Source of the DNA: Anadara kagoshimensis
Taxonomy: Eukaryota; Mollusca; Bivalvia; Arcoida; Arcidae
Assembly (NCBI GenBank): GCA_021292105.1
Contig: CM037867.1
Span: forward strand, 11,046,721-11,110,720
Direction of reading: 5' to 3'
Length of the DNA: 64,000 bases
The position numbers were made by a program, and so were the translations under genes. Position 1 is the stretch's first letter, and each line of letters opens with the position of its first letter. Shown one piece after another: positions 4,216-63,283 of the stretch. A model generated the notes under the pieces. The model was given only the letters and a program-made list of their open reading frames with translations. It was not told the DNA's origin and ran no database searches.

Positions 4216-4249
4216 TGCTAATAATTTGTTATGCCATTCGGGTTCCGGA

Positions 4250-6213: not shown

Positions 6214-6690
6214 TGTTCTTTTGTCAACTTTCCTTTTCTATGCAACAATTTACCTGCTTCTTCTGCTAATGGCGTATTTGATTTACAAATAATAGGTTAT
6301 GGTAGAGTTTGCTCCCGCTAAAGAAACTTTATACAACGAAGCAAGTTGCTTACATATCAAAAACAAACATACTAATCCATGTTCGATTCACAATCTATAT
6401 AAAGCTAGTAGTTAAAACTTTAAGACTGACAACTTAGGTTAAACAATTCCTAACACAGGGATATTGCAAGACTTGTCATGTCCCTCGAAAAATCATCAAA
6501 AAAGTATCATGTCTGTGTATCGAAAAAATATCCTAGATATATTTCACGTCCAATGGTTTTCTAACTTTTAATTTTACACGTGACGCGTATGGCTAGCTAA
6601 AACAGGAGATGGTCTAAAACTTTAACTTAATTTACTAGTTTCAAAAGATTTTATTTAGCTTTGGAACTATGATTTGGACTTATGTTTCAT
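6214..6690 (+). mobile_element. Element P fragment with a nested inverted fragment
   Basis: The copy starts in the FPFLCSNIPA coding region and runs into the 3' untranslated part, with many substitutions. At about 6,359-6,447 it is interrupted by a reverse-strand piece of element P's own 3' end (AAAAACAAACATACTAATCC through GACAACTTAGGTTAAAC). The host copy then resumes with ACACAGGGATATTGCAAG. It decays towards the 3' end. Confidence 0.7.
6359..6447 (-). mobile_element. Nested 3'-end fragment of element P
   Basis: About 88 bp of the element's 3' terminus in the opposite orientation sit inside the fragment at 6,214-6,690. The sequence begins exactly at the family terminus (AAAAACAAACATACTAATCC), which suggests insertion of a 5'-truncated copy rather than rearrangement. 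Confidence 0.65.
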
Positions 6691-7304
6691 TTGGATCAGG
6701 TATATAGAATAGACATATTTATCATGTATATAAAAACACCCATGACTCCTAAGGAAAGACAGTTGATATTTATAAAGAGATTATTTTCGTTATAAAATAA
6801 AGCACCTGGTTTACAGATGGTCTATATATACGCTTTATAGTATAGCCGTACGCTTTATAGTCAACTCAGAAATATAAAGTATTAGCTATAGTTAATACAG
6901 AATAAAAAAAATGTTATATACTAAAGTTTCAGTTTATAAAGAAAATATAAATTATCATTTTATTTTTGTGGCGTGATTGTATCAAGAAAATAATATTAGT
7001 TAGATAAAAAATACAAATGGTTATCTCGCATATAATTGTTACTATAACAAAAAAGAAAGCATGGTGAAAATGGAGAAATAAATGTATGTCATATTGCAAT
7101 TTAATTTTCCTTAAATTGTCGTTTTTTGGTAAACAACATAATAAATTCGCTACCCAAGGAGACATAAACGTTTTTATTCTCCAAAATATTTTTTCTATAC
7201 AGTTTATCGGATTAAATGAGAAATTGGGGGTTTTTAATAAAATTTTATGTACTTACAGTCTCACGTGTAAATAAAGAGTTATCTCTCTTTAGCTTCTTTA
7301 ATAC
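6691..7304. other. AT-rich stretch, nothing recognised
   Basis: The short open frames here are low in complexity (poly-F/I/N codons). There are no splice-flanked coding segments or transposon ends that I can identify. Confidence 0.4.
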
Positions 7305-7407: not shown

Positions 7408-7699
7408 GTATCTTGTGTTGAAGTTATATGATTTTTTTATTATGGTTTCCGCGATCGAATGGCAGGACAAATTGCCTTTTTAGGATGCTAAGATGCAATA
7501 GATGCATTGTTTAAATAATTAATTGGATTTCTAAATAAATAATTGAAGATTTAAGAAATGTTTGTAAAAATGCTGGAAATGTAAGGCATAAAGCACATTT
7601 ATTGCCTTTAGAAACTTACAATGTAAAACTTTTATTGATTTTGTATTTTCCAACCTTTTATTTTGATCAATCATTTTTTCCCCATTTAATAATGCTTTT

Positions 7700-8075
7700 T
7701 CCCACTACAGGGACTTTGTACAACGGAGCAGGCTGCTTGCAAATAAATTATTGACTCAGGGATATTACAAGCCTAGGCTTATGAAGGCCCTCAAAAAGTT
7801 TTATTGTCGTCATCACAGTATTGTTGATAAGTTTGATGTATCTGTGTCCAGGATTGCCCTGTATAAGTTTGACGTCCAATAGTTCAATGTTCGTTTCACA
7901 TAATTTTGATTACACACGTGCCGGTGTAGCTAGCTCAACAGAAGGTGCTTACCCTTTCGGAGCACCAGTCCTCACTTCTTTGGTGGAAGTTCACGTGTCT
8001 AACCGGACTTATAAGTTTTAAAGTTTTTACTTTGCTTCTGGATTGTGATTCGAACATGGATTGTTATGTTTGTTT
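7700..8075 (+). mobile_element. Element P fragment (3' end)
   Basis: The fragment runs from the coding tail (CTACAGGGACTTTGTACAAC, then the KKFY-like region) through the stop and the 3' untranslated hairpin region to ATGTTTGTTTTTGATA. It is fairly well preserved. A frame along it remains open but lacks all catalytic motifs. Confidence 0.75.
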
Positions 8076-8344
8076 TTGATACTATATAATTATTCAATTT
8101 TCAATTTATTATTCGACCGATAAAGTGTTCAATAGTGTTGTCGTTTTTAAAAAGACTGCTATTCACACACAAAAGACACGTAGAGACCACTATAGCAGTC
8201 ACAGAACAACATAACTGTTAAGTTTATATACGTGACTTAATTCTTCAAAAATAAGGTTAAGAAATATCAGCCAGTGGAAGAGCGTGTTATTCAACGGATA
8301 CTACATCAGTCGAATATAGCTATTGATGCCAAAATGAAATACCT

Positions 8345-8600
8345 ATAAAAAACAAATATACTAATCCATGTCCGAAACACAATTCAGAACCAAAGTAAAA
8401 ATTTTGGAACTGACAAGTTAGGTTAGACACGAGAACTTCTACCAGGGAATTGAGACCGGGTGCTCCGGAAGGGTAAGCACCTCCTGTTTTTCTAGCTACA
8501 CCCGCGACGTGTGTAATCAAAATTGTGTGAAAAGAACAAGGATCTATGGGACGTCAAATATATCCAGGGCACAGAGACATCAAACTGATTAACCATACTT
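8345..8600 (-). mobile_element. Element P fragment (3' end), inverted
   Basis: It starts at the family terminus AAAAACAAATATACTAATCC and extends through the 3' untranslated region into the last codons of the RT tail (GACGTCAAATATATCCAGGG). It lies immediately upstream of the cysteine-rich exon, in its presumed intron. Confidence 0.75.
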
Positions 8601-8644
8601 TTAATATCTTTTAACTAACCTTATTTTGTTTTACTTATTTGCAG

Positions 8645-10645: not shown

Positions 10646-11214
10646 TTAAACGTGCTTAGTGGCTTTTTCTGTGAATAAAATGTCGACAATAAAAATTGCT
10701 AAACAAAGGGAAACAAACTATGATTACAGACAATTTGTGATGTAGTTGTAGGATTGAACCACCCCCTTGATGTTAGCCTAAGTGTTTAGTTGATACATTT
10801 TTGATTATCAAATGAATGCAAACATGTTATTTGAACAAATCTCAATAATTATGAGGAATATCGAAATTTGTGCAATGAAGAAATAATAGGTTATAAACAT
10901 AAGGGGATTGGATCATGACGTGCTTAATTTAAATATATGATGTTTTTCGTCAATGTTTAAGATATTAGGATTATGAGTACATGTTAACCTGAAAGATGAG
11001 AGGATCCGTTGCATAAAAATTAATCAACTCGTTTAATAAGTTTAATATTACCTAAAATCATGTTTGATCCTAATATTATATATACCATTAAGATTTGTAT
11101 AGTTTGGCTATTGATATTGGTTTGAACAGTAATATAACATTTGGGCCTTAAGCAATATTAGTATATAACTGATTGTAAAAACAATTCTATATGAAATTTA
11201 ATACTGGATACAGA
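10646..11214. other. Nothing recognised
   Basis: AT-rich non-coding sequence between the MITE and the satellite array; no open frames or repeat ends are visible. Confidence 0.4.
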
Positions 11215-13320
11215 ACAAATCAAAACCAAATTAACATACTAATCCGTGACATAATCACAATTCTAAATAAAAGTAAAAACGAACATACCAATCCATGTCC
11301 AAATAATAATCCGAAATCAAAATAAAACAAACATACCAATCCAAGTCCAAATCACAATCCGAAAAATAAGTAAAAACAGACATACCGATCCATGTCTAAA
11401 TCGCAATCCCTATGCAAAGTAAAACAAACTCACCATTCAATGACCAAATCGCTATTCGAAATCAAAGTAAAAACAAACATACCAATTCATGTCCAAATCA
11501 CAATCCGAAATCAAAATAAAAACAATCGTACCGATCTATGTCTAAATCACATTCCCTAAGCAAAGTAAATCAAACATATCATTCAATGACCAAATTGCAA
11601 TCCGAAATCAAAATAAAAAAAAACATGCCAATCAATGTCCAAACCGAATTCGAAATCCAAGTAGAACAAATACTAGTAAACCAAACGATGTCCAAATCAC
11701 AATATGAAATCAAGTAAGATAAGCATACTAATAAATGTCCAAATGACAATCCTTAAGCAAAATTAAACAAACATACCAATTCATATTCAAATCACAATCT
11801 GAAATCAAAGTAAAATCATACAAACCAATCCATGTCCAAATCACAATGTCATAGCAAAGTAAAAACAAACATACCAACGCATGTCCAAATCACAATCCCA
11901 AATCATATTAAAATCAAACATACCAATCCATATCAAAATCACAATCCCAAATGAAAGTAAAGCAAACATACCAATCCATGTCCAAATCACAATCCCAAAT
12001 CAAAGTAAAAACAAACATACCAATCCATGTCCAAATCACAATCCCAAATCATATTAAAGACAAACATACCAATCCATATCAAAATCACAATCCCTAAGCA
12101 AAGTAAAAACATCATACCAATCCATGTCAAAATCACAATCCGGAATGAAATAAAAACAAACATACGTATCCATGTCCAAATCACAATTCCAAAGCATAGT
12201 TAAAACAAACCTACCAGTCCATGTCAAAAATCATATTCCGAAATCAACGTAAAAACAAACAAACGTATACATGCCCAAATCACAATCCGAAATTAAAGTA
12301 AAAACGAACATACGACGAACAAACATACCAATCCATGTCAAAATCACAATCAAAAATCAAAATAAAAACAAACATACCAATCCATGTCAAAATCACAATC
12401 CGAAATCGATTAAATATAATCATACGAATCCATGTCAAAATTACAATCCGAAATCAAAGCAAAAACAAACATAAGAACCCATGTTCAAATCACAATCCGA
12501 AATCATAGTAAAAACAACGCACATACCAATCTATGTCCAAATCACAATCTGAAATCATAGTTGTTCCAACATAAAAGTAAAAAACAAACATACCAATCCA
12601 TGTCCAAATCACATTTCGAAATAAAAGTAAAAAAACAAACATACCAATCCATGTCCAAATCACATTCCGAAATAAAAGTAAAAGACAAACATACTAATCC
12701 ATGTCAAACTATGTCCAAATCATAATCTGAAATAAAATTAAAAACACACATACCAATCCATGTCCAAATCATTATCCGAATTCAAAGTAAAAACAAACAT
12801 AACAATCAAAAACAAACATACTAATCCATGTCAAACTATGTCCAAATCATAATCTGAAATAAAAGTAAAAACGGACATACCAATCCATGTCCAAATCATA
12901 ATCCGAAATAAAAGTAAAAAACAAACATAGTAATCCTTGTCAAAATCACAATCTGAAATCAAAGTAAAACCAAACAAACAAATCAATCCCCAAGTCACAT
13001 TCTGATTTAAAAGTAAAAAAAAACCACACACATACAAATCCATGTCCAAATCACAATCCAAAATCAAAGTAAATTTTTCCGAAATAAAAGTAAAAACAAA
13101 CATGCCGATCCATGCCCAAACCACAATCCCAAAGCAAAGTAAAAACAAACATACCAATCTATGTCCAAATCACAATCCCAAAGCAAAGTAAAAACAAACA
13201 TACCAATCCATGTCCAAATCACAATCCCAAAGCAAAGTAAAAACAAACATACCAATCCATATCCAAATCAAAATCCGGACTCAAAGTAAAAACTTTTAAA
13301 CTGACAAATTAAGTTCAACA
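11215..13320 (-). repeat. 49-bp satellite array derived from the 3' terminus of element P
   Basis: Roughly forty head-to-tail copies of a unit close to AAAAACAAACATACCAATCC, then ATGTCCAAATCACAATCC, then CAAAGCAAAGT fill this stretch. The period is exactly 49 bp in the best-preserved part (13,141 to 13,190 to 13,239), with drift elsewhere. The unit is the reverse complement of the last 49 bp found once at the end of dispersed element P copies. At the right edge (13,290-13,320) the array continues into the next stretch of the element's 3' end (TTTTAAACTGACAAATTAAG), so the array sits in the register of one element P copy whose terminal segment has been multiplied. Apparent open frames in both strands are by-products of the repeat. 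Confidence 0.9.
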
Positions 13321-13980: not shown

Positions 13981-14171
13981 CTGGTATGGAGTTTTTTTCA
14001 GTTACATTTATCAAAGGTTACCTTTTTCCCGCATATACTCTGGTTATATTGATTGTATTAAGTGCATACCAGCTTGTCTGCCCAATATATAGTACAGTTA
14101 TAATATCAGTTTGATTAAACGAGAAGACTTGGTTATAGGGTGGTTTTATTGTAAAGTCAGGTTCTGTATCT

Positions 14172-14402
14172 AAAATTACCCTGGGTATATTTGACGTCTA
14201 ATAGTTCCGTTACCTTTTATGCAAAATATCGACCTTACACTTGTGTGTAGCTAGCTACACAAAAAGTGCTTAACCTTTCCAGAGCACCTGCCCTCACTTC
14301 CCTGGTCAAAGTTTATGTCTTTAACTTAATTTGCCAGTTTCAAAGATTTGTTTTGCTTTGGTATTGTGATTTAAACATGGATAGGCATGTTTGTTTCTTG
14401 TT
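14172..14402 (+). mobile_element. Element P fragment (3' end)
   Basis: The fragment runs from the last RT codons (CCTGGGTATATTTGACGTC) through the 3' untranslated part, including a perfect palindrome GTGTAGCTAGCTACAC, to GGATAGGCATGTTTGTTT. Confidence 0.75.
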
Positions 14403-14639
14403 TATATAATGCAGTGAGTCTCACTGGCCATATTTATATCCCATTTCCGTAAAATCTATTGAGAGTAAGATTGGTGGTTCATGGTTTTTTCAGCAAATAG
14501 TCGTTTCTATATTAGTGAGATACTCCGCTTTGACGTACAACATTATTACTATTACTGCTAAATATTGTTTTGTTTTTCCACTAACTTGCCATGGTGCTAT
14601 GAAAACAAAAACGTTCAGATTTGCATTAATAAGATACAG

Positions 14640-15335: not shown

Positions 15336-15340
15336 ACTAG
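15336..15340. other. Target site duplication, left
   Basis: ACTAG directly precedes the 5' LTR and is repeated at 29,660-29,664 directly after the 3' LTR. A 5-bp duplication is usual for Ty3/gypsy integrases. Confidence 0.9.
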
Positions 15341-15845
15341 TGTCACACTTTGTGTTGTTTTTGTATTTAATCTGGGTATATGTAGGTTAGGGTAGTAGTG
15401 AAACAGGTGTAGATCTACTGCCAGCTGGTCATTGTTGTGCAAGACTTTATGCAAATTAGTTACCTTATATGGTCAATTTTTACCTGTCCATGCTGTGGGG
15501 TGAGAGTTGGTAGCAGACCATGTGCTGAGAAGGTCCTGTGTGGATGGTCAAGAGAGAATGGTCTGATATTTGAGTTAAATATTTTGCCTATGTGGCTCTA
15601 AAGTATATAGATAGTTAAACCTGTGTGGTTAAAACATTTATACATGTGTGGTTAAACATTTAAACCTGTGTGGTTAAGACTTAAACCTGTGTGGTTAAAA
15701 CAATTATACCTGTGTGGTTCAGCCATTTCATAACCTGTGTGGTTCAGCCATTTTATACCTGTGTGGTACCTGTGTGGTAGTATGTGGAGAAATTTGGGGT
15801 GGAGAGTTGCATTGACAGCAGTAAGTTTATTATTTTTTATTATTA

Positions 15846-15876
<31 letters not shown>

Positions 15877-16746
15877 ATTTTTAATTTGATGGTATTTTTG
15901 TTTTTATCATTTTATAAATAGAATTGATATTAAGGGGGTAAATTACCAGTAATTATAATGAACAGGTGAAAATTAAAGGTTATTATTATTTAACAATTTT
16001 ATTATTATATCCATAATAATTATTTCAAAGTCAAAACCTTGAGTTAACTGCTTGTAAAATGAGGTTTCCACATGTACTTCAAGTGTTGGCATGAGTTCAT
16101 GCAAATTCATATTTATTACACAATTTTAAGTTGTTCAATAGCATTTTCCAAATTTTGTAATATTCATTACAAAGTCCCTGTATTTGTGTAATTGTAGATG
16201 ACCAGCTAGGGATCGTACAGGATTTTGAAATATATATTAAGAAGTGTCAATGTATGAACATTGTGAATTTGTTGAACATGTGCTGGTTATATACCATGAA
16301 AAGCCAGAGGGTATTTAAAGTATTTTAAAGGTTCATCAGTGTTTCTATGGATACTTCGGTTTGTGTTTTTGTGCCGTAATGATGTTATACCTATACAGTT
16401 GTGATTACAAGTCTACGGTGGACTGTTGTGCCATGTGTTGGACAGTGTTGAACAGTATAAACAATTCAATTGTAATGGATGACATGGTCAGACATGTGAT
16501 GTGTACATGTATATATGGACTGTGTTTTGACATGAACATTTTGGTGTATAGTACTGTACTAGAGCAGTTATTGCGGGTTATATATTTTCTTTTTATGTAT
16601 TTTTTTATCTATATATATGTTCTTTTATTTGTTTTTTTAATAAATCTTTGTTATTTAAATCAATTGTATTATGTAATTAGTTTACATAATTTGAATTGCA
16701 CAAGTCATTTATCCAAACCCACACACACACAACTCTAGTTGTGACA
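15341..16746 (+). repeat. 5' LTR
   Basis: The LTR is 1,406 bp with TGTCAC..GTGACA ends and an AATAAA at 16,639-16,644 near its 3' end. It contains a degenerate minisatellite of CCTGTGTGGTTAAAAC at about 15,615-15,780 and an (ATT)n tract near 15,830-15,880. Differences from the 3' LTR are few: scattered substitutions, short indels and microsatellite length. An apparent 125-codon frame at 16,361-16,738 is not conserved in the 3' LTR and is not a gene. Confidence 0.95.
15615..15780 (+). repeat. Minisatellite inside the 5' LTR
   Basis: About eight degenerate copies of CCTGTGTGGTT plus an AAAACATTTA-like or CAGCCATTTT-like spacer, unit roughly 18-24 bp. The same array lies at 28,535-28,700 in the 3' LTR. 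It sits in the upstream half of the LTR, where U3 promoter and enhancer sequences are expected. Confidence 0.8.
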
Positions 16747-16748
16747 TT

Positions 16749-16766
16749 TGGGGGCTCGTCCGGGAT
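16749..16766 (+). promoter_or_regulatory. Primer binding site, tRNA-Pro type
   Basis: TGGGGGCTCGTCCGGGAT begins two bases after the 5' LTR. It is complementary to the 3' end of tRNA-Pro, the same 18 nt used by several gammaretroviruses. It would prime minus-strand DNA synthesis. Confidence 0.9.
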
Positions 16767-16893
16767 GGGATAAAATATTAATGATTATAGTGAATTCAGG
16801 TTATGTGAACTAATATTTTGATTGAATATTTTTTATTGTGACATATTTTGTGATTTTGCCAATATTAACTGGTATTTTCATTATATTGTTAAA

Positions 16894-17001
16894 ATGGATG
16901 CCAGTAAGTTTATTGAAGAGGGATCAAAGTTAGGTTTAACTGGTGATCGATTAGTTGAATATGTTCGAACAAAGAAAAGTATTTTAGACAGAGAGAGATA
17001 G
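16894..17001 (+). pseudogene. gag N-terminus, frameshifted
   Basis: The first ATG after the primer site (AAAATGGATG) opens a peptide starting MDASKFIEEGSKLGLTG, a plausible Gag N-terminus. It stops after 35 codons in a purine-rich stretch of GAGAGA repeats. The main gag frame resumes in another phase at about 17,100. The break lies in a GA-rich, slippage-prone tract, so small indels there probably caused it. Confidence 0.6.
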
Positions 17002-17122
17002 AACAGTTAGAGAGAGATGAGAGAAATGCAGAGAGAGAGAGGCTAAGAAATTAGAGCAACAGAATTAAATTATTTTATTAGAGAAAGAGTCAGAGAGAGC
17101 TGAGAAAGAGGCAATACATAAA

Positions 17123-18877
17123 TTGAGTATTTTAGACAAGGAGATTGAGTTAGAGAAAGCTAAGATTGAGACTTCACATAGTGCGTTAGATGCTAGTATG
17201 AGTGCAAGTGAGAGTCATGGTCATCACGTAGGTGCTAAGTTACCTAAGTTACCAATGTTTAATGACCAGAGAGATAATATTGACGCATATCTGTTACGGT
17301 TTGAGAGGTTTGCTCAAAATGCTAAATGGCCAGAAAATACATGGGCAAATAATCTTAGTGCTTTGTTGCAGCATAAAGCCCTTGATGTGTATTCACGTCT
17401 ACCACCTGCAGATGCACAAGATTATAAAACAGTTAAGGTGGCTCTTCTTAAACGGTTTCAGTTAACCGAGGAAGGCTTTAGAAATAAATTTAGATCTAGC
17501 AAGCCTGAACAGGGTGAAAGTCCATCACAATTTATTGCTCGTCTTGAGAATTATCTGACTAGATGGATGGATTTATCTAAAACTCCCCGTACTTTTGCTG
17601 GTTTAGTTGATTTGTTATTGAGAGAACAGTTCATATGTAGTGCTGGTAAATCACTCAGTATGTTTTTGAGAGAGAGAAAGCCCAAAAATAAGGAGGAGAT
17701 GTCAGAGTTAGCTGAACAGTATATAGAGGCACATGGTGTTACATCATTTATATCTGACAAAATGTTTACGCCTAAACAAAATAGTAACACTTCTCAAAAT
17801 ACTAGTAGTTCAGGTCAGCAAAATAGAGATTTAGCAGGCAGAGGGGTTTCAGACAAAGGCAGGAGTGACAGAAGGTGCTATAAGTGTGGCAATATTGGGC
17901 ATGTTGCCAGAGATTGTTTAAGTACAAGTAGGCAAGTGCCTGGAGGTAGAAATTATAATACTGCAGGCATGTTAGAACAGGTGGGATATCAAAACTGTCA
18001 CGGGAGAGGTTATTCAAGTCAAGGTCAAGGACGAGGTTATCTAGGTCAAGGTCAAGGAAGAGGTTATCTAGGTCAAGGTCAAGGTAGTAATAGAGGTAGA
18101 GGTCATGGTAGAGGCTATGATATTCCATATAATAGCTCTGGTGGTGATCCTAATACAGAAGCACAAGTTGGTTCAGCATGTTTAGTATCAGATGAGTTGA
18201 AATCATGCTGTATTCAAGATTGTCAAGTTAAGTTACAATGTGGGCATATGTTACCTGTAATTGGAAGTGTTTGTAAAGGTTGTAGTAACATGCCAGTAGT
18301 AACAGGGTATATAGAGGGGTCTAAGGTAAAAGTGCTTAGGGATACTGGCTGCAGTGGTGTGGTTGTAAAATCTAGTTTAATACAGGATAGTCAACTAACA
18401 GGTAACAGTCAAAGATGTGTACTTATAGATGGTACAGTCAGAAATTTCAAGGAAGCCAGCATAAATATTAATACTCCATTTTATGCAGGTAATGTGGTGG
18501 CACTTTGTGTAGATAATCCAGTGTATGACTTAATAATTGGAAATATTACAGGTGTTAGAAATATGGAGGATATAGATCCAGACTGGGAGATAAACAATAC
18601 AGGTGTATCACTAGATGACAACAAGGTGAGTGTATCAGAAATGACAGAGTGTAAAGTAGTAGATCAGGAATGTCAAGCTGTAGAAACACGCAGTCAGAAA
18701 AAGAAGAGTACAGAATTTAAAGGTATGAAAGTAGTCAGTCCGATAGATGTTGGTATCAGTGTAGATGATATTAAGAAAGCACAACAAGAAGATGATACTT
18801 TAGCAAAGTATAGAGAGTTAACCAAGTCAGGTAAGAGAAAAATCACTGGAAGTAGTAATGTGTCATGGTTCACATGA
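17123..18877 (+). CDS. gag: Gag-protease polyprotein (5' part broken)
   Basis: A frame of 584 codons opens without an ATG; the true start is probably at 16,894, separated by a frameshift. After a charged N-terminal region (about residues 1-40) comes a capsid-like domain (about 40-205: LPKLPMFN, DAYLLRFERFA, ALDVYSRLP, QFIARLENYL, FLRERKPK). In Gmr1-like elements this region is related to the vertebrate SCAN domain. A CCHC zinc knuckle lies at about residues 252-265 (CYKCGNIGHVARDC). A Gly/Gln/Arg-rich repeat (RGYLGQGQG, about 295-335) follows. An aspartic protease has its catalytic D-T-G at residues 407-409 (LRDTGCSG) and a later LIIGN flap-like segment. It ends at a TGA caused by a frameshift just before the integrase zinc-binding domain. 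Gag would assemble the particle and the protease would cut the polyprotein. Confidence 0.9.
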   Translation: MSILDKEIELEKAKIETSHSALDASMSASESHGHHVGAKLPKLPMFNDQRDNIDAYLLRFERFAQNAKWPENTWANNLSALLQHKALDVYSRLPPADAQDYKTVKVALLKRFQLTEEGFRNKFRSSKPEQGESPSQFIARLENYLTRWMDLSKTPRTFAGLVDLLLREQFICSAGKSLSMFLRERKPKNKEEMSELAEQYIEAHGVTSFISDKMFTPKQNSNTSQNTSSSGQQNRDLAGRGVSDKGRSDRRCYKCGNIGHVARDCLSTSRQVPGGRNYNTAGMLEQVGYQNCHGRGYSSQGQGRGYLGQGQGRGYLGQGQGSNRGRGHGRGYDIPYNSSGGDPNTEAQVGSACLVSDELKSCCIQDCQVKLQCGHMLPVIGSVCKGCSNMPVVTGYIEGSKVKVLRDTGCSGVVVKSSLIQDSQLTGNSQRCVLIDGTVRNFKEASININTPFYAGNVVALCVDNPVYDLIIGNITGVRNMEDIDPDWEINNTGVSLDDNKVSVSEMTECKVVDQECQAVETRSQKKKSTEFKGMKVVSPIDVGISVDDIKKAQQEDDTLAKYRELTKSGKRKITGSSNVSWFT

Positions 18878-19624
18878 AGAAGGTTTGTTATATCGTTGTT
18901 TTCAGTCACCTAAAGTGGATGATAATAAAATATTTCACCAATTGATAGTGCCTAACAGTACAGAGAAGTTGTATTAAAGTTAGCACACGACGGTATCATG
19001 GCAGGTCATTTAGGAGTACGAAAAACTACTGACAGAATATTATCTAATTTCTATTGGCCAGGTATTCAGTCTCATGTGACACGGTATTGTAGATCTTGCG
19101 ACATATGCCAGAAGACTTTTCCAAAAGGTAAGATTACTAAAGTTCCATTAGGTCGTATGCCATTAATTGAAACACCATTTGAACGTGTTGCAGTTGATTT
19201 AGTTGGTCCCATATATCCAGCAACAGAGCGAGGGAACAGGTATATATTAACGTTAGTCGATTACAGTACAAGATATCCAGAGGCAGTTGCATTAAAGGGG
19301 ATAGAAACTGAAAGAGTAGCTGAAGCTTTGGTCGAAATGTTCACTAGGATTGGTATACCAAAGGAGATATTGTCAGATATGGGTACTCAGTTTACATCAA
19401 ACATTATGAAGGCAGTTGGTAGATTATTGTCCATTAATCAACTCACAACAACACCATATCACCCAGCATGTAATGGTTTGGTAGAAAAATTCAAGGGAAC
19501 ACTCAAAAACATGTTACGGAAGATGAGTACTGAACGACCACAAGACTGGGATAGATACATACCATCATTATTATTTGCATATAGAGAGGTGCCGCAGGAA
19601 AGTCTTGGTTTTTCTCCATTCTAG
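18873..19624 (+). pseudogene. Integrase N-terminal domain and core, broken
   Basis: The frame opens with HEEGLLYRCF at 18,873 in one phase and shifts near 18,960 into the phase of 18,998-19,624, so it needs corrections at both ends. The H2C2 zinc-binding domain is visible (LAHDG, GHLGVRKT, YCRSCDICQ). The DDE core follows: D at 19,196 (VDLVGP), D at 19,376 (LSDMGTQF) and E at 19,484 (LVEKF). The last two are spaced D-x35-E as in retroviral integrases. The frame ends at tandem TAG TAA (19,622-19,627), where units 2-4 read FELVYG. It is the only copy in the element with the zinc-binding domain and the first catalytic aspartate, because the tandem units begin downstream of them. Confidence 0.85.
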
Positions 19625-21070
19625 TAAGCATATGGACGGACAGTCAGAGGACCAATGACAATATTACGTGAATTGTGGACTAATGAGGATAGTGAACCAG
19701 ATGTTAAAAGTACCTACCAATATGTCTTAGATTTGAAGGACAATTTGACAGATACATGTGAACTAGCTAAGAGAGAATTGGTTAAATCAAGTGCACGTTA
19801 CAAGAAGTACTTTGATTATAGAACAAAGAGGAAGTCATTTAAGATCGGTGACAAAGTTTTGTTGTTACTACCAACGGACAAGAATAAACTACTCATGCAA
19901 TGGAAAGGGCTGTATACTGTGACAGGTAGAGTGGGTGAAGCAGATTATCGTATTGACAAAGATGGTAAAATTAGAACTTTCCATGCTAATCTTCTTAAAA
20001 AGTATATAGACAGAAATCAAACAGTGTCAACAGTTCCAGATGTAGTCAGTTGTGTCATTATTAACACTGAACCAGATGAGACGTTATCAGACAATGATCC
20101 ATTGTTAAACATAGTTCCACTTAAAGCTACAGAGACAGTAGATGATGTTAAAGTGAATGATGGTTTGTCGACAGAACAGAAGCAGGAGGTCAGAAATTTG
20201 TTAAACGAGTACAGTGATGTATTGTCAGATTTGCCAGGTAGAACTGATGTGGTACAACACGAGATTAATTTGACAAGAGAGGATCCTATCAGAAATAAAA
20301 CATATCAAGTTCCATACGCAATGAGAGATGTAGTCAGGAATGAGATCAAGCAGATGTTACAGATGGACATTATTGAACCATCCGAGTCATCATATGCAAG
20401 TTCTATAGTAATAGTGAAGAAACCAGATGGATCCAATCGTCTATGCCTAGACTTCAGAAATTTAAACAAAGTTACAGTTTTTGATACAGAACCTATGCCA
20501 GATCCGGAAGAGATTTTTGCAAAGATTGGTCAAAGTTGCTATTTTACAAAAATAGATCTATGTAAAGGCTATTGGCAAATCTCAATGCGTGAACAGGACA
20601 AAGACTTGACATCGTTTGTTACACCTGATGGTTTATATCGTTTCAAGGTAATGGCGTTTGGTATGATAAATTCTGCAGCTGCTTTCAATCGTATGATGAG
20701 ACTAATTTTGAGAGATATGGTCCATACGAACAGCTTTGTTGATGATATTTTGGTACACACAAGTAGTTGGGAAGGACATCTTGTGGAGATTAAGGAGTTG
20801 TTGAGGAGACTGAGATCCATGAATTTAACAGCAAAACCGTCAAAATGTAAAGTTGGATATCAGAATTTAGATTTCTTAGGACACACTGTAGGAGGTGGTT
20901 TCATCAGACCAAATGAGGACAAACTGAAGGCGATAAGTGATACACCACGTCCTGAAACAAAGAAACAAATGAGGTCATTTCTAGGATTTATTGGATTTAT
21001 AGAAGTTTGTACCAAATTTTGCTGCTGTGGCTGCACCTTTAACAGATCTAAAGAAAGGAGTTCCAAATAG
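19625..21070 (+). pseudogene. pol: Unit 1: integrase C-terminus, reverse transcriptase, start of RNase H
   Basis: The frame is the same as the integrase upstream, behind TAG TAA. It covers the integrase C-terminal part (KIGDKVLLLLP, WKGLYTV, FHANLLKKYIDRN), reads CAA where units 2-4 have TAA, and continues through a linker into RT: LPGRTDVVQHEI, PYAMRDVV, SSIVIVKKPDGS, LDFRNLN, YFTKIDLCKGYWQI, and the catalytic FVDD at 20,735-20,746. A 2-bp deletion near 20,996 (GGATTTATAGAAG against GGATTTTATAGGAAG in other units) breaks the frame before RNase H. It is the only unit in which integrase and RT are not separated by a stop at the linker. Confidence 0.9.
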
Positions 21071-21537
21071 GTTTGAGTGGAGTACAGAGCATGAAAATGC
21101 GTTCCAGAATCTCAAAAAGATGCTGATGTATTCACCAATTTTGAGGTTAGTAGATTTTAATAAACAGTTGGTATTACGGACAGATGCTTTGGAGTATGGT
21201 TTAGGTGGTGTTTTACTACAAGATCATGATGGTAAGTTATATCCGGTTGCTTATGCTAGCCGCAAGTTAAGTGTTGCAGAACGGGTATATTCAGTCATTG
21301 AGAAGGAATGCTTAGCCATTATTTGGGCACTTCAGAAATTTCAGGTATATTTATATGGTAGAACATTCATTTTGCAGACAGATCATCAACCATTGGTATA
21401 TTTACAGAGAGCAAAGGTTTCAAATGGTAGGTTAATGCGTTGGGCACTTCATTTACAGTCTTATAACTTCAGAATTGAGGCTATTAAAGGACCAGATAAT
21501 GTAGGAGCAGATTTCCTAAGTCGAAATGTTCACTAGG
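21027..21537 (+). pseudogene. Unit 1: RNase H domain
   Basis: RNase H continues in a different frame after the unit 1 deletion. It shows LRTDALEYGLGGVLLQ, EKECLAIIWALQKF and LQTDHQPL, which carry the acidic catalytic residues D, E and D, and ends SRNVH followed by TAG. A 3-bp deletion (GATCTAAAGAAAGG) also distinguishes this unit. Confidence 0.85.
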
Positions 21538-22208
21538 ATTGGTATACCAAAGGAGATATTGTCAGATATGGTACTCAGTTTACATCAAACATTATGAAGG
21601 CAGTTGGTAGATTATTGTCCATTAATCAACTCACAACAACACCATATCACCCAGCATGTAATGGTTTGGTAGAAAAGTTCAATGGAACACTCAAAAACAT
21701 GTTACGGAAGATGAGTACTGAACGACCAAAAGACTGGGATAGATACATACCATCATTATTATTTGCATATAGAGAGGTGCCGCAGGAAAGTCTTGGATTT
21801 TCTCCATTTGAGTTAGTATATGGACGGACAGTCAGAGGACCAATGACAATATTACGTGAATTGTGGACTAATGAGGATAGTGAACCAGATGTTAAAAGTA
21901 CTTACCAATATGTGTTAGATTTGAAGGACAAAATGACAGATACATGTGAACTAGCTAAGAGAAAATTGGTTAAATCAAGTGCACGTTACAAGAAGTACTT
22001 TGATTATAGAACAAAGAGGAAGTCATTTAAGATAGGTGACAAAGTTTTGTTGTTACTACCAACGGATAAGAATAAACTACTCATGCAATGGAAAGGGCCG
22101 TATACTGTGACAGGTAGAGTGGGTGTAGCAGATTATCGTATTGACAAAGATGGTAAAATTAGAACTTTCCATGCTAACCTTCTTAAAAAGTATATAGACA
22201 GAAATTAA
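21520..22208 (+). pseudogene. Unit 2: truncated integrase (core second half and C-terminus)
   Basis: The unit starts inside the integrase core and lacks the zinc-binding domain and the first catalytic aspartate. A 1-bp deletion (GATATGGTACTC against GATATGGGTACTC) shifts the frame near 21,568. The remaining open part runs from about 21,594 through KIGDKVLLLLP to YIDRN and a TAA at 22,206-22,208. Confidence 0.85.
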
Positions 22209-22346
22209 ACAGTGTCAACAGTTCCAGATGTAGTCAGTTGTGTCATTATTAACACTGAACCAGATGAGACGTTATCAGACAATGATCCATTGTTAAACAT
22301 AGTTCCACTTAAAGCTACAGAGACAGTAGATAGATGATGTGATGGT

Positions 22347-23723
22347 TTGTCAACAGAACAGAAGCAGGAGGTCAGAAAGTTGTTAAACGAGTTCAGTGAT
22401 GTATTGTCAGATTTGCCAGGTAGAACTGATGTGGTACAACACGAGATTAATTTGACAACAGAGGATCCTATCAGAAATAAAACATATCAAGTTCCATACG
22501 CAATGAGAGATGTAGTCAGAAATGAGATCAAGCAGATGTTACAGATGGACATTATTGAACCATCCGAGTCATCATATGCAAGTTCTATAGTAATAGTGAA
22601 GAAACCAGATGGATCCAATTGTCTATGCCTAGACTTCAGAAATTTAAACAAAGTTACAGTTTTTGATGCAGAACCTATGCCAGATCCGGAAGAGATTTTT
22701 GCAAAGATTGGTCAAAGTTGCTATTTTACAAAAATAGATCTATGTAAAGGCTATTGGCAAATTCCAATGCGTGAACAGGACAAAGACTTGACATCGTTTG
22801 TTACACCTGATGGTTTATATCGTTTCAAGGTAATGGCGTTTGGTATGATAAATTCTGCAGCTGCTTTCAATCGTATGATGAGACTAATTTTGAGAGATAT
22901 GGTCCATACGAACAGCTTTGTTGATGATATTTTGGTACACACAAGTAGTTGGGAAGGACATCTTGTGGAGATTAAGGAGTTGTTGAGGAGACTGAGATCC
23001 ATGAATTTAACAGCAAAACCGTCAAAATGTAAAGTTGGATATCAGAATTTAGATTTCTTAGGACACACTGTAGGAGGTGGTTTCATCAGACCAAATGAGG
23101 ACAAACTGAAGGCGATAAGTGATACACCACGTCCTGAAACAAAGAAACAAATGAGGTCATTTCTAGGATTTATTGGATTTTATAGGAAGTTTGTACCAAA
23201 TTTTGCTGCTGTGGCTGCACCTTTAACAGATCTAACTAAGAAAGGAGTTCCAAATAGGTTTGAGTGGAGTACAGAGCATGAAAATGCGTTCCAGAATCTC
23301 AAAAAGATGCTGATGTATTCACCAATTTTGAGGTTAGTAGATTTTAATAAACAGTTGGTATTACGGACAGATGCTTTGGAGTATGGTTTAGGTGGTGTTT
23401 TACTACAAGATCATGATGGTAAGTTATATCCGGTTGCTTATGCTAGCCGCAAGTTAAGTGTTGCAGAACGGGTATATTCAGTCATTGAGAAGGAATGCTT
23501 AGCCATTATTTGGGCACTTCAGAAATTTCAGGTATATTTATATGGTAGAACATTCATTTTGCAGACAGATCATCAACCATTGGTATATTTACAGAGAGCA
23601 AAGGTTTCAAATGGTAGGTTAATGCGTTGGGCACTTCATTTACAGTCTTATAACTTCAGAATTGAGGCTATTAAAGGACCAGATAATGTAGGAGCAGATT
23701 TCCTAAGTCGAAATGTTCACTAG
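22347..23723 (+). CDS. pol: Unit 2: reverse transcriptase and RNase H
   Basis: RT and RNase H are intact in one frame of 458 codons, from the linker (STEQKQEVRKLL) through KKPDGS, YFTKIDLCKGYWQI and FVDDILVH to RNase H (LRTDALEYG, EKECLAI, LQTDHQPL) and the stop TAG at 23,721-23,723. A 6-bp net deletion in the linker near 22,330 removes part of the N-terminal spacer. The frame has no canonical start of its own, so expression would need readthrough of the upstream TAA or a chimaeric product. Confidence 0.85.
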   Translation: MSTEQKQEVRKLLNEFSDVLSDLPGRTDVVQHEINLTTEDPIRNKTYQVPYAMRDVVRNEIKQMLQMDIIEPSESSYASSIVIVKKPDGSNCLCLDFRNLNKVTVFDAEPMPDPEEIFAKIGQSCYFTKIDLCKGYWQIPMREQDKDLTSFVTPDGLYRFKVMAFGMINSAAAFNRMMRLILRDMVHTNSFVDDILVHTSSWEGHLVEIKELLRRLRSMNLTAKPSKCKVGYQNLDFLGHTVGGGFIRPNEDKLKAISDTPRPETKKQMRSFLGFIGFYRKFVPNFAAVAAPLTDLTKKGVPNRFEWSTEHENAFQNLKKMLMYSPILRLVDFNKQLVLRTDALEYGLGGVLLQDHDGKLYPVAYASRKLSVAERVYSVIEKECLAIIWALQKFQVYLYGRTFILQTDHQPLVYLQRAKVSNGRLMRWALHLQSYNFRIEAIKGPDNVGADFLSRNVH

Positions 23724-24396
23724 GATTGGTATACCAAAGGAGATATTGTCAGATATGGGTACTCAGTTTACATCAAACATTATGAAGGCAGTTGGTAGAT
23801 TATTGTCCATTAATCAACTCACAACAACACCATATCACCCAGCATGTAATGGTTTGGTAGAAAAGTTCAATGGAACACTCAAAAACATGTTACGGAAGAT
23901 GAGTACTGAACGACCAAAAGACTGGGATAGATACATACCATCATTATTATTTGCATATAGAGAGGTGCCGCAGGAAAGTCTTGGATTTTCTCCATTTGAG
24001 TTAGTATATGGACGGACAGTCAGAGGACCAATGACAATATTACGTGAATTGTGGACTAATGAGGATAGTGAACCAGATGTTAAAAGTACTTACCAATATG
24101 TGTTAGATTTGAAGGACAAAATGACAGATACATGTGAACTAGCTAAGAGAAAATTGGTTAAATCAAGTGCACGTTACAAGAAGTACTTTGATTATAGAAC
24201 AAAGAGGAAGTCATTTAAGATAGGTGACAAAGTTTTGTTGTTACTACCAACGGATAAGAATAAACTACTCATGCAATGGAAAGGGCCGTATACTGTGACA
24301 GGTAGAGTGGGTGTAGCAGATTATCGTATTGACAAAGATGGTAAAATTAGAACTTTCCATGCTAACCTTCTTAAAAAGTATATAGACAGAAATTAA
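23707..24396 (+). pseudogene. Unit 3: truncated integrase
   Basis: An ATG at 23,713 (MFTRIGIPKEIL) lies inside the preceding RNase H frame, so the frames overlap by 11 nt. It encodes the second catalytic Asp (LSDMGTQF), the Glu (LVEKFNG) and the integrase C-terminus, and ends YIDRN-TAA. It lacks the zinc-binding domain and the first catalytic Asp, so it cannot be an active integrase. Confidence 0.85.
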
Positions 24397-24399
24397 ACA

Positions 24400-25917
24400 G
24401 TGTCAACAGTTCCAGATGTAGTCAGTTGTGTCATTATTAACACTGAACCAGATGAGACGTTATCAGACAATGATCCATTGTTAAACATAGTTCCACTTAA
24501 AGCTACAGAGACAGTAGATGATGTTAAGGTGAATGATGGTTTGTCAACAGAACAGAAGCAGGAGGTCAGAAAGTTGTTAAACGAGTTCAGTGATGTATTG
24601 TCAGATTTGCCAGGTAGAACTGATGTGGTACAACACGAGATTAATTTGACAACAGAGGATCCTATCAGAAATAAAACATATCAAGTTCCATACGCAATGA
24701 GAGATGTAGTCAGAAATGAGATCAAGCAGATGTTACAGATGGACATTATTGAACCATCCGAGTCATCATATGCAAGTTCTATAGTAATAGTGAAGAAACC
24801 AGATGGATCCAATTGTCTATGCCTAGACTTCAGAAATTTAAACAAAGTTACAGTTTTTGATGCAGAACCTATGCCAGATCCGGAAGAGATTTTTGCAAAG
24901 ATTGGTCAAAGTTGCTATTTTACAAAAATAGATCTATGTAAAGGCTATTGGCAAATTCCAATGCGTGAACAGGACAAAGACTTGACATCGTTTGTTACAC
25001 CTGATGGTTTATATCGTTTCAAGGTAATGGCGTTTGGTATGATAAATTCTGCAGCTGCTTTCAATCGTATGATGAGACTAATTTTGAGAGATATGGTCCA
25101 TACGAACAGCTTTGTTGATGATATTTTGGTACACACAAGTAGTTGGGAAGGACATCTTGTGGAGATTAAGGAGTTGTTGAGGAGACTGAGATCCATGAAT
25201 TTAACAGCAAAACCGTCAAAATGTAAAGTTGGATATCAGAATTTAGATTTCTTAGGACACACTGTAGGAGGTGGTTTCATCAGACCAAATGAGGACAAAC
25301 TGAAGGCGATAAGTGATACACCACGTCCTGAAACAAAGAAACAAATGAGGTCATTTCTAGGATTTATTGGATTTTATAGGAAGTTTGTACCAAATTTTGC
25401 TGCTGTGGCTGCACCTTTAACAGATCTAACTAAGAAAGGAGTTCCAAATAGGTTTGAGTGGAGTACAGAGCATGAAAATGCGTTCCAGAATCTCAAAAAG
25501 ATGCTGATGTATTCACCAATTTTGAGGTTAGTAGATTTTAATAAACAGTTGGTATTACGGACAGATGCTTTGGAGTATGGTTTAGGTGGTGTTTTACTAC
25601 AAGATCATGATGGTAAGTTATATCCGGTTGCTTATGCTAGCCGCAAGTTAAGTGTTGCAGAACGGGTATATTCAGTCATTGAGAAGGAATGCTTAGCCAT
25701 TATTTGGGCACTTCAGAAATTTCAGGTATATTTATATGGTAGAACATTCATTTTGCAGACAGATCATCAACCATTGGTATATTTACAGAGAGCAAAGGTT
25801 TCAAATGGTAGGTTAATGCGTTGGGCACTTCATTTACAGTCTTATAACTTCAGAATTGAGGCTATTAAAGGACCAGATAATGTAGGAGCAGATTTCCTAA
25901 GTCGAAATGTTCACTAG
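24400..25917 (+). CDS. pol: Unit 3: reverse transcriptase and RNase H
   Basis: This is a complete RT-RNase H frame of 505 codons, including the full linker (TVPDVVSCVIINTEPDE, then STEQKQEVRKLL). RT motifs are KKPDGS, LDFRNLN, GYWQIPM, FGMINSAAAF and FVDDILVH. RNase H acidic motifs are LRTDALEYG, EKECLAI and LQTDHQPL. It is separated from the integrase remnant by one TAA and lies in the same frame. It is the least damaged RT-RH unit of the array. Confidence 0.9.
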   Translation: MSTVPDVVSCVIINTEPDETLSDNDPLLNIVPLKATETVDDVKVNDGLSTEQKQEVRKLLNEFSDVLSDLPGRTDVVQHEINLTTEDPIRNKTYQVPYAMRDVVRNEIKQMLQMDIIEPSESSYASSIVIVKKPDGSNCLCLDFRNLNKVTVFDAEPMPDPEEIFAKIGQSCYFTKIDLCKGYWQIPMREQDKDLTSFVTPDGLYRFKVMAFGMINSAAAFNRMMRLILRDMVHTNSFVDDILVHTSSWEGHLVEIKELLRRLRSMNLTAKPSKCKVGYQNLDFLGHTVGGGFIRPNEDKLKAISDTPRPETKKQMRSFLGFIGFYRKFVPNFAAVAAPLTDLTKKGVPNRFEWSTEHENAFQNLKKMLMYSPILRLVDFNKQLVLRTDALEYGLGGVLLQDHDGKLYPVAYASRKLSVAERVYSVIEKECLAIIWALQKFQVYLYGRTFILQTDHQPLVYLQRAKVSNGRLMRWALHLQSYNFRIEAIKGPDNVGADFLSRNVH

Positions 25918-26590
25918 GATTGGTATACCAAAGGAGATATTGTCAGATATGGGTACTCAGTTTACATCAAACATTATGAAGGCAGTTGGTAGATTATTGT
26001 CCATTAATCAACTCACAACAACACCATATCACCCAGCATGTAATGGTTTGGTAGAAAAGTTCAATGGAACACTCAAAAACATGTTACGGAAGATGAGTAC
26101 TGAACGACCAAAAGACTGGGATAGATACATACCATCATTATTATTTGCATATAGAGAGGTGCCGCAGGAAAGTCTTGGATTTTCTCCATTTGAGTTAGTA
26201 TATGGACGGACAGTCAGAGGACCAATGACAATATTACGTGAATTGTGGACTAATGAGGATAGTGAACCAGATGTTAAAAGTACTTACCAATATGTGTTAG
26301 ATTTGAAGGACAAAATGACAGATACATGTGAACTAGCTAAGAGAAAATTGGTTAAATCAAGTGCACGTTACAAGAAGTACTTTGATTATAGAACAAAGAG
26401 GAAGTCATTTAAGATAGGTGACAAAGTTTTGTTGTTACTACCAACGGATAAGAATAAACTACTCATGCAATGGAAAGGGCCGTATACTGTGACAGGTAGA
26501 GTGGGTGTAGCAGATTATCGTATTGACAAAGATGGTAAAATTAGAACTTTCCATGCTAACCTTCTTAAAAAGTATATAGACAGAAATTAA
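25901..26590 (+). pseudogene. Unit 4: truncated integrase
   Basis: Equivalent to the integrase remnant of unit 3, starting at an ATG (25,907) that overlaps the preceding RNase H stop by 11 nt and ending YIDRN-TAA at 26,588-26,590. The first half of the integrase is missing. Confidence 0.85.
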
Positions 26591-26593
26591 ACA

Positions 26594-28116
26594 GTGTCAA
26601 CAGTTCCAGATGTAGTCAGTTGTGTCATTATTAACACTGAACCAGATGAGACGTTATCAGACAATGATCCATTGTTAAACATAGTTCCACTTAAAGCTAC
26701 AGAGACAGTAGATGATGTTAAGGTGAATGATGGTTTGTCAACAGAACAGAAGCAGGAGGTCAGAAAGTTGTTAAACGAGTTCAGTGATGTATTGTCAGAT
26801 TTGCCAGGTAGAACTGATGTGGTACAACACGAGATTAATTTGACAACAGAGGATCCTATCAGAAATAAAACATATCAAGTTCCATACGCAATGAGAGATG
26901 TAGTCAGAAATGAGATCAAGCAGATGTTACAGATGGACATTATTGAACCATCCGAGTCATCATATGCAAGTTCTATAGTAATAGTGAAGAAACCAGATGG
27001 ATCCAATTGTCTATGCCTAGACTTCAGAAATTTAAACAAAGTTACAGTTTTTGATGCAGAACCTATGCCAGATCCGGAAGAGATTTTTGCAAAGATTGGT
27101 CAAAGTTGCTATTTTACAAAAATAGATCTATGTAAAGGCTATTGGCAAATTCCAATGCGTGAACAGGACAAAGACTTGACATCGTTTGTTACACCTGATG
27201 GTTTATATCGTTTCAAGGTAATGGCGTTTGGTATGATAAATTCTGCAGCTGCTTTCAATCGTATGATGAGACTAATTTTGAGAGATATGGTCCATACGAA
27301 CAGCTTTGTTGATGATATTTTGGTACACACAAGTAGTTGGGAAGGACATCTTGTGGAGATTAAGGAGTTGTTGAGGAGACTGAGATCCATGAATTTAACA
27401 GCAAAACCGTCAAAATGTAAAGTTGGATATCAGAATTTAGATTTCTTAGGACACACTGTAGGAGGTGGTTTCATCAGACCAAATGAGGACAAACTGAAGG
27501 CGATAAGTGATACACCACGTCCTGAAACAAAGAAACAAATGAGGTCATTTCTAGGATTTATTGGATTTTATAGGAAGTTTGTACCAAATTTTGCTGCTGT
27601 GGCTGCACCTTTAACAGATCTAACTAAGAAAGGAGTTCCAAATAGGTTTGAGTGGAGTACAGAGCATGAAAATGCGTTCCAGAATCTCAAAAAGATGCTG
27701 ATGTATTCACCAATTTTGAGGTTAGTAGATTTTAATAAACAGTTGGTATTACGGACAGATGCTTTGGAGTATGGTTTAGGTGGTGTTTTACTACAAGATC
27801 ATGATGGTAAGTTATATCCGGTTGCTTATGCTAGCCGCAAGTTAAGTGTTGCAGAACGGGTATATTCAGTCATTGAGAAGGAATGCTTAGCCATTATTTG
27901 GGCACTTCAGAAATTTCAGGTATATTTATATGGTAGAACATTCATTTTGCAGACAGATCATCAACCATTGGTATATTTACAGAGAGCAAAGGTTTCAAAT
28001 GGTAGGTTACGTAGTGCGTTGGGCACTTCATTTACAGTCTTATAACTTCAGAATTGAGGCTATTAAAGGACCAGATAATGTAGGAGCAGATTTCCTAAGT
28101 CGACATGTTCAGTAGG
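26594..28116 (+). pseudogene. pol: Unit 4: reverse transcriptase and RNase H, frameshift near the end
   Basis: The RT is intact through FVDDILVH, and RNase H runs to VSNGRL. There a 4-bp insertion (GGTTACGTAGTGCG against GGTTAATGCG, near 28,010) shifts the frame and causes an early stop at 28,045. The correct frame resumes as WALHLQSYNF and ends SRHVQ-TAG at 28,116. This terminus (H and Q instead of N and H) represents the original end of pol. Polypurine tract and LTR follow directly. Confidence 0.9.
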
Positions 28117-28245
28117 TTTGTATTATAGTACATGTAATATAGTTACATAATCATTTTTGCAATAGGTAATTGCATTTGTGTTGTTACAGTTAAGGTTAGT
28201 ATTATAAGTACATGACAAAATATTCAAATTTTCAATTTTGTACTT

Positions 28246-28256
28246 AAGGGGGGAGG
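28246..28256 (+). promoter_or_regulatory. Polypurine tract
   Basis: AAGGGGGGAGG lies four bases before the 3' LTR and is the expected primer for plus-strand synthesis. The 130 bases between the pol stop and this tract hold no frame. Confidence 0.9.
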
Positions 28257-28259
28257 TTT

Positions 28260-28745
28260 TGTCACACTTTGTGTTGTTTTTGTATTTAATCTGGGTATAT
28301 GTAGGTTATGGTAGTAGTGAAACAGGTGTAGATCTACTGCCAGCTGGTCATTGTTGTGCAAGACTTTATGCAAATTAGTTACCTTATATGGTCAATTTTT
28401 ACCTGTCCATGCTGTGGGGTGAGAGTTGGTAGCAGACCATGTGCTGAGAAGGTCCTGTGTGGATGGTCAAGAGAGAATGGTCTGATATTTGAGTTAAATA
28501 TTTTGCCTGTGTGGCTCTAAAGTATATAGATAGTTAAACCTGTGTGGTTAAAACTTTTATACCTGTGTGGTTAAAACATTTAAACCTGTGTGGTTAAGAC
28601 TTAAACCTGTGTGGTTAAAACAATTATACCTGTGTGGTTCAGCCATTTTATAACCTGTGTGGTTCAGCCATTTTATACCTGTGTGGTACCTGTGTGGTAG
28701 TATGTGGAGAAATTTGGGGTGGAGAGTTGCATTGACAGCAGTAAG

Positions 28746-28779
<34 letters not shown>

Positions 28780-29659
28780 TTTAATTTGATGGTATTTTTG
28801 TTTTTATCATTTTATAAATAGAATTGATATTAAGGGGGTAAATTACCAGTAATTATAATGAACAGGTGAAAATTAAAGGTTATTATTATTTAACAATTTT
28901 ATTATTATATCCATAATAATTATTCAAAGTCAAAACCTTGAGTTAACTGCTTGTAAAATGAGGTTTCCACATGTACTTCAAGTGTTGGCATGAGTTCATG
29001 CAAATTCATATTTATTACACAATTTTAAGTTGTTCAATAGCATTTTCCAAATTTTGTAATATTCATTACAAAGTCCCTGTATTTGTGTAATTGTAGATGA
29101 CCAGCTAGGGATCGTACAGAATTTTGAAATATATATTAAGAAGTGTCAATGTATGAACATTGTGTAAATTTGTTGAACATGTGCTGGTTATATGCCATGA
29201 AAAGCCAGAGGGTATTTAAAAGTATTTTCTGAAGGTTCCATGCAGTGTTTCTATGTATACCTTCGGTTTGTGTTTTTGTGCCGTAATGATGTTTATACCT
29301 ATACCGTTGTGATTATAAGTCTACGGTGGACCGTATGTGCCATGTGTTGGACAATGTTGAACAGTATAAACAATTCAATTGTAATGGATGACATGGTCAG
29401 ACATGTGATGTGTACATGTATATATGGACTGTGTTTTGACATATGAACATTTTGGTGTATAGTACTGTACTAGAGCAGTTATTGCGGGTTATATATTTTC
29501 TTTTTATGTATTTCTTTTATCTATATATATGTTCTTTTATTTGTTTTTTTTAATAAATCTTTGTTATTTAAATCAATTGTATTATGTAATTAGTTTACAT
29601 AATTTGAATTGCACAAGTCATTTATCCAAACCCACACACACACAACTCTAGTTGTGACA
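28260..29659 (+). repeat. 3' LTR
   Basis: 1,400 bp with the same TGTCAC..GTGACA ends, minisatellite (28,535-28,700), ATT tract (about 28,745-28,780) and AATAAA (29,552-29,557) as the 5' LTR. Differences are concentrated in the repeats and around 29,220-29,330, with several small indels. Confidence 0.95.
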
Positions 29660-29664
29660 ACTAG
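29660..29664. other. Target site duplication, right
   Basis: ACTAG, identical to 15,336-15,340. Confidence 0.9.
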
Positions 29665-35189: not shown

Positions 35190-35405
35190 TTGTCCATGAT
35201 TGCTCTGGATATATTTGACGTCTCATACTTTCGTGTTCCTTTTACTAATTTTTTATTACACACGTTGCGGGTGTAGGTAGCTGCCCAGGTGGTGCTTACC
35301 CTTCCCTGGTGAAAGTCCACGTGTTTATCCTAACTTGTCAGTTTCAAAGTTTTATCGTGCTTCTGGATTGTGTATCGATCATAGATTAGTATGTTTGTTT
35401 TTTAT
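35190..35405 (+). mobile_element. Element P fragment (3' end)
   Basis: The fragment runs from the last RT codons (TGCTCTGGATATATTTGACG) to AGATTAGTATGTTTGTTTTT. The hairpin region has a short deletion (GGTGCTTACCCTTCCCTGG). A second partial terminus in the same orientation lies at 35,507-35,568. Confidence 0.7.
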
Positions 35406-35506
35406 TTTATGTGCAAAGGAATGCATGTACCGACATTTTATAGTTGATTGAATAATCTGCTGCTGGACTTGTACGGGTTTGGTTTTAATTAATTGCCGCT
35501 TTTTAA

Positions 35507-63243: not shown

Positions 63244-63283
63244 CTATATATAGACTGTTTTCCTCGGGTTTTTATAGACTAAC

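Follow-up and report, generated by a model that had tools for sequence, protein, structure and literature searches.

The 64,000-nucleotide stretch of Anadara kagoshimensis DNA analysed here (hereafter the window; assembly GCA_021292105.1, contig CM037867.1, positions 11,046,721 to 11,110,720 of the forward strand) carries one long terminal repeat (LTR) retrotransposon on its plus strand, at positions 15341-29659. Between the single pair of LTRs, a block encoding the end of integrase (IN), reverse transcriptase (RT), and RNase H (RH) is present four times, head to tail. The array is genuine as assembled and unusual in structure, its mechanism is ordinary and well precedented, and its copy number in the assembly is four. 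It appears to result from a copying error during insertion, enlarged later at the same site, and does not point to a novel class of mobile element. The searched assembly comprises 1.115 Gb in 36 contigs, in which the window is C11:11046721-11110720. Positions given without a contig are those of the window.

Self-comparison reveals four direct copies, with starts approximately 2.19 kb apart, that span positions 19331-28098. Unit 1 (19331-21519, 2,189 bp) includes the end of the integrase core, the integrase C-terminal region, RT, and RNase H, and it is diverged with a broken RT-RH frame. Unit 2 (21520-23706, 2,187 bp) and unit 3 (23707-25900, 2,194 bp) carry open RT-RH frames at 22347-23723 and 24400-25917, respectively, each extending 17 bases into the next unit. 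In unit 4 (25901-28098, 2,198 bp), the RNase H end is disrupted by a 4-bp insertion and the RT-RH frame is truncated. The arrangement of four units inside one element, and all four lengths, agree exactly with the original prediction made from the sequence. Its statement that RT-RNase H is intact in units 2 and 3 is borne out for the domains, and the single TGA within the matched stretch of unit 2 is located upstream of the RT domain. A chance repeat is ruled out by identities of 98-100% across about 2.2 kb, four times over.

A single integration underlies the structure. The element is flanked by two copies of the 5-bp target-site duplication (TSD) ACTAG (15336-15340 and 29660-29664), and a segmental paralogue of the insertion site, located 1.7 Mb away on the same chromosome (L039, C11:12744000-12752000), lacks the element. 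Identity to this paralogue is 88.9% for the left flank and 91-93% for the right flank, with about 4.5 kb covered altogether. It carries one ACTAG, followed, as read by eye, by about 25 extra bases before the remainder of the right flank. Because the site is empty with only one ACTAG, the entire structure derives from one integration, which the two repeats of this sequence around the element support. Self-comparison also found no LTR match within 16747-28259, and hence there is neither an internal third LTR nor two complete cores. A search with the left flank for a second allele elsewhere in the assembly recovered only the window itself (100%), the paralogue (85%), and short repeats of about 69-79% among the best 40 of 3,401 candidates; the right flank was not searched.

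The junction between units fuses the end of RNase H to the integrase core, and its sequence suggests how the first duplication arose. The native RNase H end, GTCGACATGTTCAGTAGG (28099-28116), is identical at 16 of 18 positions to the integrase tract GTCGAAATGTTCACTAGG that begins at 19331 and ends at 19348, and this homeology underlies the array junction. When 18-mers from the 5′ part through unit 1 were paired with those from unit 4 plus the 3′ untranslated region (UTR), 19331/28099 was the sole non-orthologous pair scoring 16/18 among approximately 11.1 million pairs tested. All three junctions hold the integrase-type tract from the first difference onward, which places the switch among the five identical bases that open the homeology on its upstream side. 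A switch at this edge is what a jump of the minus strand predicts, while a plus-sense DNA jump would presumably have just the five bases GTCGA to use. From these sequences we infer, rather than prove, a minus-strand template switch at the homeology.

The array is confined to this insertion. A search of the same genome with the junction pattern, allowing up to three mismatches, returned 21 places. Three are exact and all lie in the window, and the other 18 are native RNase H ends (17 outside the window and a single one inside it); no unit-to-unit junction was found outside the window by this search. A search with unit 2 gave at least 54 matches (best 40 of 62 candidates scored, so that all counts are lower bounds), including close, near-full-length copies at 89-98% identity in at least 19 places outside the window. 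All 19 of the other copies that were fetched (L009-L027) have a single unit per element between the integrase and the 3′ UTR. Therefore, the array is private to the present insertion and does not mark a transmitted multi-pol lineage. The original prediction had looked to junctions shared with other loci as the sign of transmission by retrotransposition, and on the evidence of the junction search and the 19 single-unit copies such transmission is rejected.

A broader protein search yielded 94 matches in 80 places among the best 85 of 2,650 candidates, and four of these places are the units of the window. In this sample of RT loci, no further same-strand neighbours show a spacing of about 2.2 kb. 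The remaining close pairs comprise six on the same strand at 5.7-6.9 kb, the spacing of whole elements, and a pair on C4 with a spacing of 3.0 kb and members that are 42% and 48% identical to the query. Satellites derived from transposable elements (TEs) form long arrays at several loci, and none of that kind was found here, where there is one locus with four units. Whole copies of the family also occur head to tail, as in the L011/L013 pair, which shares an LTR (C10:22182059-22196301), and in a cluster of eight on C19 (L020-L027, C19:47991593-48071759). More pairs with whole-element spacing are present on C5, C10, C13, and C16.

Comparison of the units with other family members indicates a common origin, because all of them group in a single clade (FastTree support 0.996) and share nine changes absent from the 13 other aligned copies in strict counts. 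These 13 are drawn from the 19 other copies, and six of the eight copies in the C19 cluster were omitted. An array assembled by recombination between two family members is unsupported given this single clade. Most of the difference among units sets unit 1 apart from units 2-4, and strict private changes number 20 in unit 1 and six in units 2-4. Several changes are grouped in short blocks.

Two divergence measures bear on the age of the first duplication. If mismatches within 10 columns are merged into one event, the count between units 1 and 3 is 24 events over about 2,182 columns, and that between the two LTRs is 15 events over 1,385 aligned columns (LTR alignment with 15 LTRs from eight other stretches, L009-L015 and L018). 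Both values are approximately 1.1% (Fisher p = 1.0), and the first duplication is therefore about the same age as the insertion, with a wide error. In contrast, units 2 and 3 differ only by a 1-bp gap and one 15-column block, and units 3 and 4 only by the 4-bp insertion and an A>G change three columns beyond it. Each comparison counts as one event, whereas divergence as old as that of the LTRs should have produced 11.1 to 23.8 substitutions. The corresponding p values range from 1.8e-4, using the strict LTR count of 7, to 1e-9, using these 7 plus 8 polymorphic sites. Units 2-4 accordingly were either multiplied much later than the first duplication or homogenised.

We lean towards an origin in which template switching during reverse transcription produced two units and later unequal exchange produced four. 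In the first step, during the reverse transcription that created the present copy, the minus strand would have copied the integrase tract GTCGAAATGTTCACTAGG, re-annealed to its near match GTCGACATGTTCAGTAGG at the end of RNase H, and then copied IN-RT-RH again. The product would have been a two-unit element that integrated normally. The second step, placed long after insertion, would be an unequal exchange or a slippage involving these two units that left three copies of the second one. Units 1 and 2 share their longest exact match, of 521 bp, across the junction (the next longest is 416 bp), and an exchange there would give the order unit 1-unit 2-unit 2, as observed. Template switching has been proposed as the source of complex LTR elements with target-site duplications (Sabot and Schulman, PMC1950507), and template switches by RT can yield deletions and duplications (PMC3187697). 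Long direct repeats are also deleted at high frequency within one retroviral reverse-transcription cycle (PMC3187697), which would explain why the array has not been passed on.

Several observations weigh against this origin. Template switching on little homology is inefficient, and non-homologous recombination is reported to be at least 1000-fold rarer than homologous recombination (PMC3187697). The timing is coarse, as 15 and 24 events allow the first step to have occurred well before or after insertion. The rule for merging mismatches was chosen after the clustered blocks had been seen, and the raw counts are 32 over about 2,182 columns for the units and 26 over 1,385 for the LTRs, with BLAST giving 13 LTR mismatches over 1,421 positions. 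Eight of the LTR differences are polymorphic in other copies in the LTR alignment, so the LTR clock may have been perturbed by gene conversion. Private changes are in excess in unit 1 (19331-21519) over units 2-4 (20 versus 6, p = 0.009). In addition, the units diverge from other copies more than does the gag-IN region of the same element (16747-19330).

A live rival, which we regard as possible though doubtful, places all duplication on the chromosome after insertion. By this account, repair or replication joined the near-identical tracts, and unequal crossing-over then expanded the array. A precedent is found in a relative of about 70% DNA identity (L040, C11:2877500-2887000), which carries a 446-bp tandem duplication in its integrase (its own positions 2919-3364 and 3370-3815). 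The duplicated copies show one difference where 10 are expected (p = 5e-4) from the 26 differences over 1,159 positions between the flanking LTR-like repeats, one of which starts at the edge of the examined stretch. The duplication in this relative, judging from these counts, clearly appears to have arisen in place after insertion. The nine changes common to all units, versus two common to both LTRs, also lean towards post-insertion duplication, although the difference is non-significant (p = 0.22), and the six same-strand pairs at whole-element spacing, from the sample described above, point in the same direction. However, the divergence between units 1 and 3 matches that between the LTRs, and the crossover at the upstream edge of the homeology is predicted by a minus-strand jump but is not required by DNA exchange.

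It is unlikely, in our estimation, that the four units reflect an assembly error in which the true number is two or some other value and units 2-4 have been over-counted or collapsed. The few local scrambles and short indels by which units 2-4 differ are typical of a poor repeat consensus. The original prediction had taken private indels in each unit as an argument against such an error, and this argument fails because units 2-4 are nearly identical, so that indels of this kind cannot rule out a miscount. The real argument for at least one genuine duplication is the set of 24 events that separates unit 1 from the others, and with a unit so clearly distinct at least one junction is likely real. 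The assembly is also not generally noisy, since the gag-IN region (about 2.6 kb) has zero to two private changes in seven of the nine other copies compared. This comparison covers nine of the 19 copies (L011 and L019-L027 were omitted), and the zero counts for L016 and L017, which are near twins, carry little weight.

We consider it quite improbable that the parental RNA already held two or more IN-RT-RH modules and was packaged, reverse transcribed, and integrated as such, with other copies having been lost, reverted by repeat deletion, or missed. Least credible of all is a lineage whose members are packaged and transpose with multiple pol modules, possibly to selective advantage. In its favour one might cite the open RT-RH frames of units 2 and 3 and an in-frame RT-RH repeat in a protein of another genome (P0002). 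Against it stand the failure of the search to find the junction at any other place, the 19 single-unit copies, the frequent loss of long direct repeats in retroviral reverse transcription (PMC3187697), and the stops and missing half of integrase in units 2-4. The tandem repeat in P0002 is 179 aa long, and its copies are 97.8% identical.

Each unit starts within the integrase core, between the motifs beginning at 19190 and 19373, which we take to be those of the first and second catalytic Asp residues, and ends at the end of RNase H. Consequently, neither the integrase zinc finger nor the first catalytic Asp is present in units 2-4, and a stop codon interrupts each of them between IN and RT. 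Their integrase pieces match three Pfam integrase families only below the curated cut-offs. Given these stops and omissions, no coding role is evident for the additional units, as far as can be judged from sequence, and a functional multi-enzyme reading is disfavoured on the same grounds. This copy of the element is a dead, degenerate insertion.

The remaining features are those of a conventional LTR element. The 5′ LTR (15341-16746) has the ends TGTCACA...TGTGACA and was located by self-comparison, and it is followed by a primer-binding site (16749-16766) resembling the 3′ end of a tRNA that we take to be tRNA-Pro. Next are gag, with a SCAN match and a zinc knuckle, and protease (PR; 17123-18877). 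The SCAN match and zinc knuckle come from Pfam, and the DTG motif of the protease was read by eye. The integrase (18998-19624) includes an H2C2 zinc finger and the catalytic core, and its frame continues into unit 1, where it terminates at two stops. Downstream of the array, a polypurine tract (28246-28256) precedes the 3′ LTR (28260-29659), also identified by self-comparison. The domain order is gag-PR-IN-RT-RH. Pfam matches run from the SCAN domain and zinc knuckle through integrase and RT to RNase H, and the first copy of integrase, RT, and RNase H all exceed the cut-offs. The TG...CA LTR ends with a short TSD are as expected of an LTR element.

In Gmr1-like Ty3/gypsy elements, integrase precedes RT-RNase H (PMC6238403, PMC8220671). 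The present element has the same order and appears to be Gmr1-like, an assignment based on domain order and LTR and TSD features. Close protein relatives likewise have the order IN-RT-RH. Among the best 120 of 1886 relatives, 80 have an integrase match, always starting before RT-RH, and in one of these 80 (P0087) the integrase and RT-RH matches overlap. What distinguishes the present element from Gmr1-like elements is the fourfold IN-RT-RH block.

Other known systems share some of these characteristics. The complex LTR elements of Triticeae (PMC1950507) resemble the present element in having flanking TSDs, similar outer LTRs, a single integration, and additional internal sequence ascribed to aberrant template switching. 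However, those elements are described as containing a third LTR internally together with two full cores, whereas the present one has no LTR inside, repeats just a portion of pol, and would have undergone a later expansion. Retroviruses and Athila/Tat elements with dual RNase H (PMC9040795) are also LTR elements in which a pol domain occurs twice, but that feature is reported as old and fixed in whole lineages, unlike the recent repeat of the integrase end, RT, and RNase H in one insertion. The Cassandra-type tandem arrays (PMC7215508), as well as the C10 and C19 groups of the present family, are head to tail and can also grow by unequal recombination, although they consist of whole elements with LTRs between them rather than a repeat inside one element. 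Similarly, TE-born satellites (PMC9659126) derive from part of a retrotransposon that became a tandem repeat, but here there are only four units, an intact LTR pair, and one locus. Among the open-licence papers listed by literature searches for a duplicated pol or RT within one LTR element, none matched the present case, dual RNase H elements aside.

The locus illustrates how a single short ectopic homology can lead to amplification of a pol block inside an LTR element. It also carries two clocks, LTR against LTR and unit against unit, by which duplication at the time of insertion is separable in principle from growth on the chromosome, and it may represent the beginnings of a tandem repeat born from a retrotransposon.

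Additional repeats were observed during this analysis. One family copy (L009, C14:60549475-60557867) has a 466-bp tandem duplication at its positions 6328-7258 that takes in the end of RNase H, the 3′ UTR, and 240 bp from the start of the LTR. The duplicated copies show two differences and about one base of junction microhomology, and the LTRs are identical (0/1,060). Elsewhere in the window, a 674-bp direct repeat with 99.7% identity is present at 1-674 and 1125-1798, and self-matches resembling minisatellites or short tandem arrays are located at 11210-13293, 52251-53429, 58042-58385, 60409-61503, and 63163-63572. A short interspersed repeat family with about 70-88% identity is found in both orientations at 4024-5141, 7694-8601, 14143-14410, 35191-35406, 45001-45326, and 53851-54050. 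On another contig, C4, a COX1-like nuclear copy has its best protein match at 90% identity; among named proteins the nearest are those of Tegillarca granosa (87%) and Barbatia decussata (81%), with the following ones at 64%. Judged from this nuclear copy of a mitochondrial gene, the host is probably an ark shell. The same contig has three COX1-like nuclear mitochondrial copies inside 50 kb (C4:4487676-4537603).

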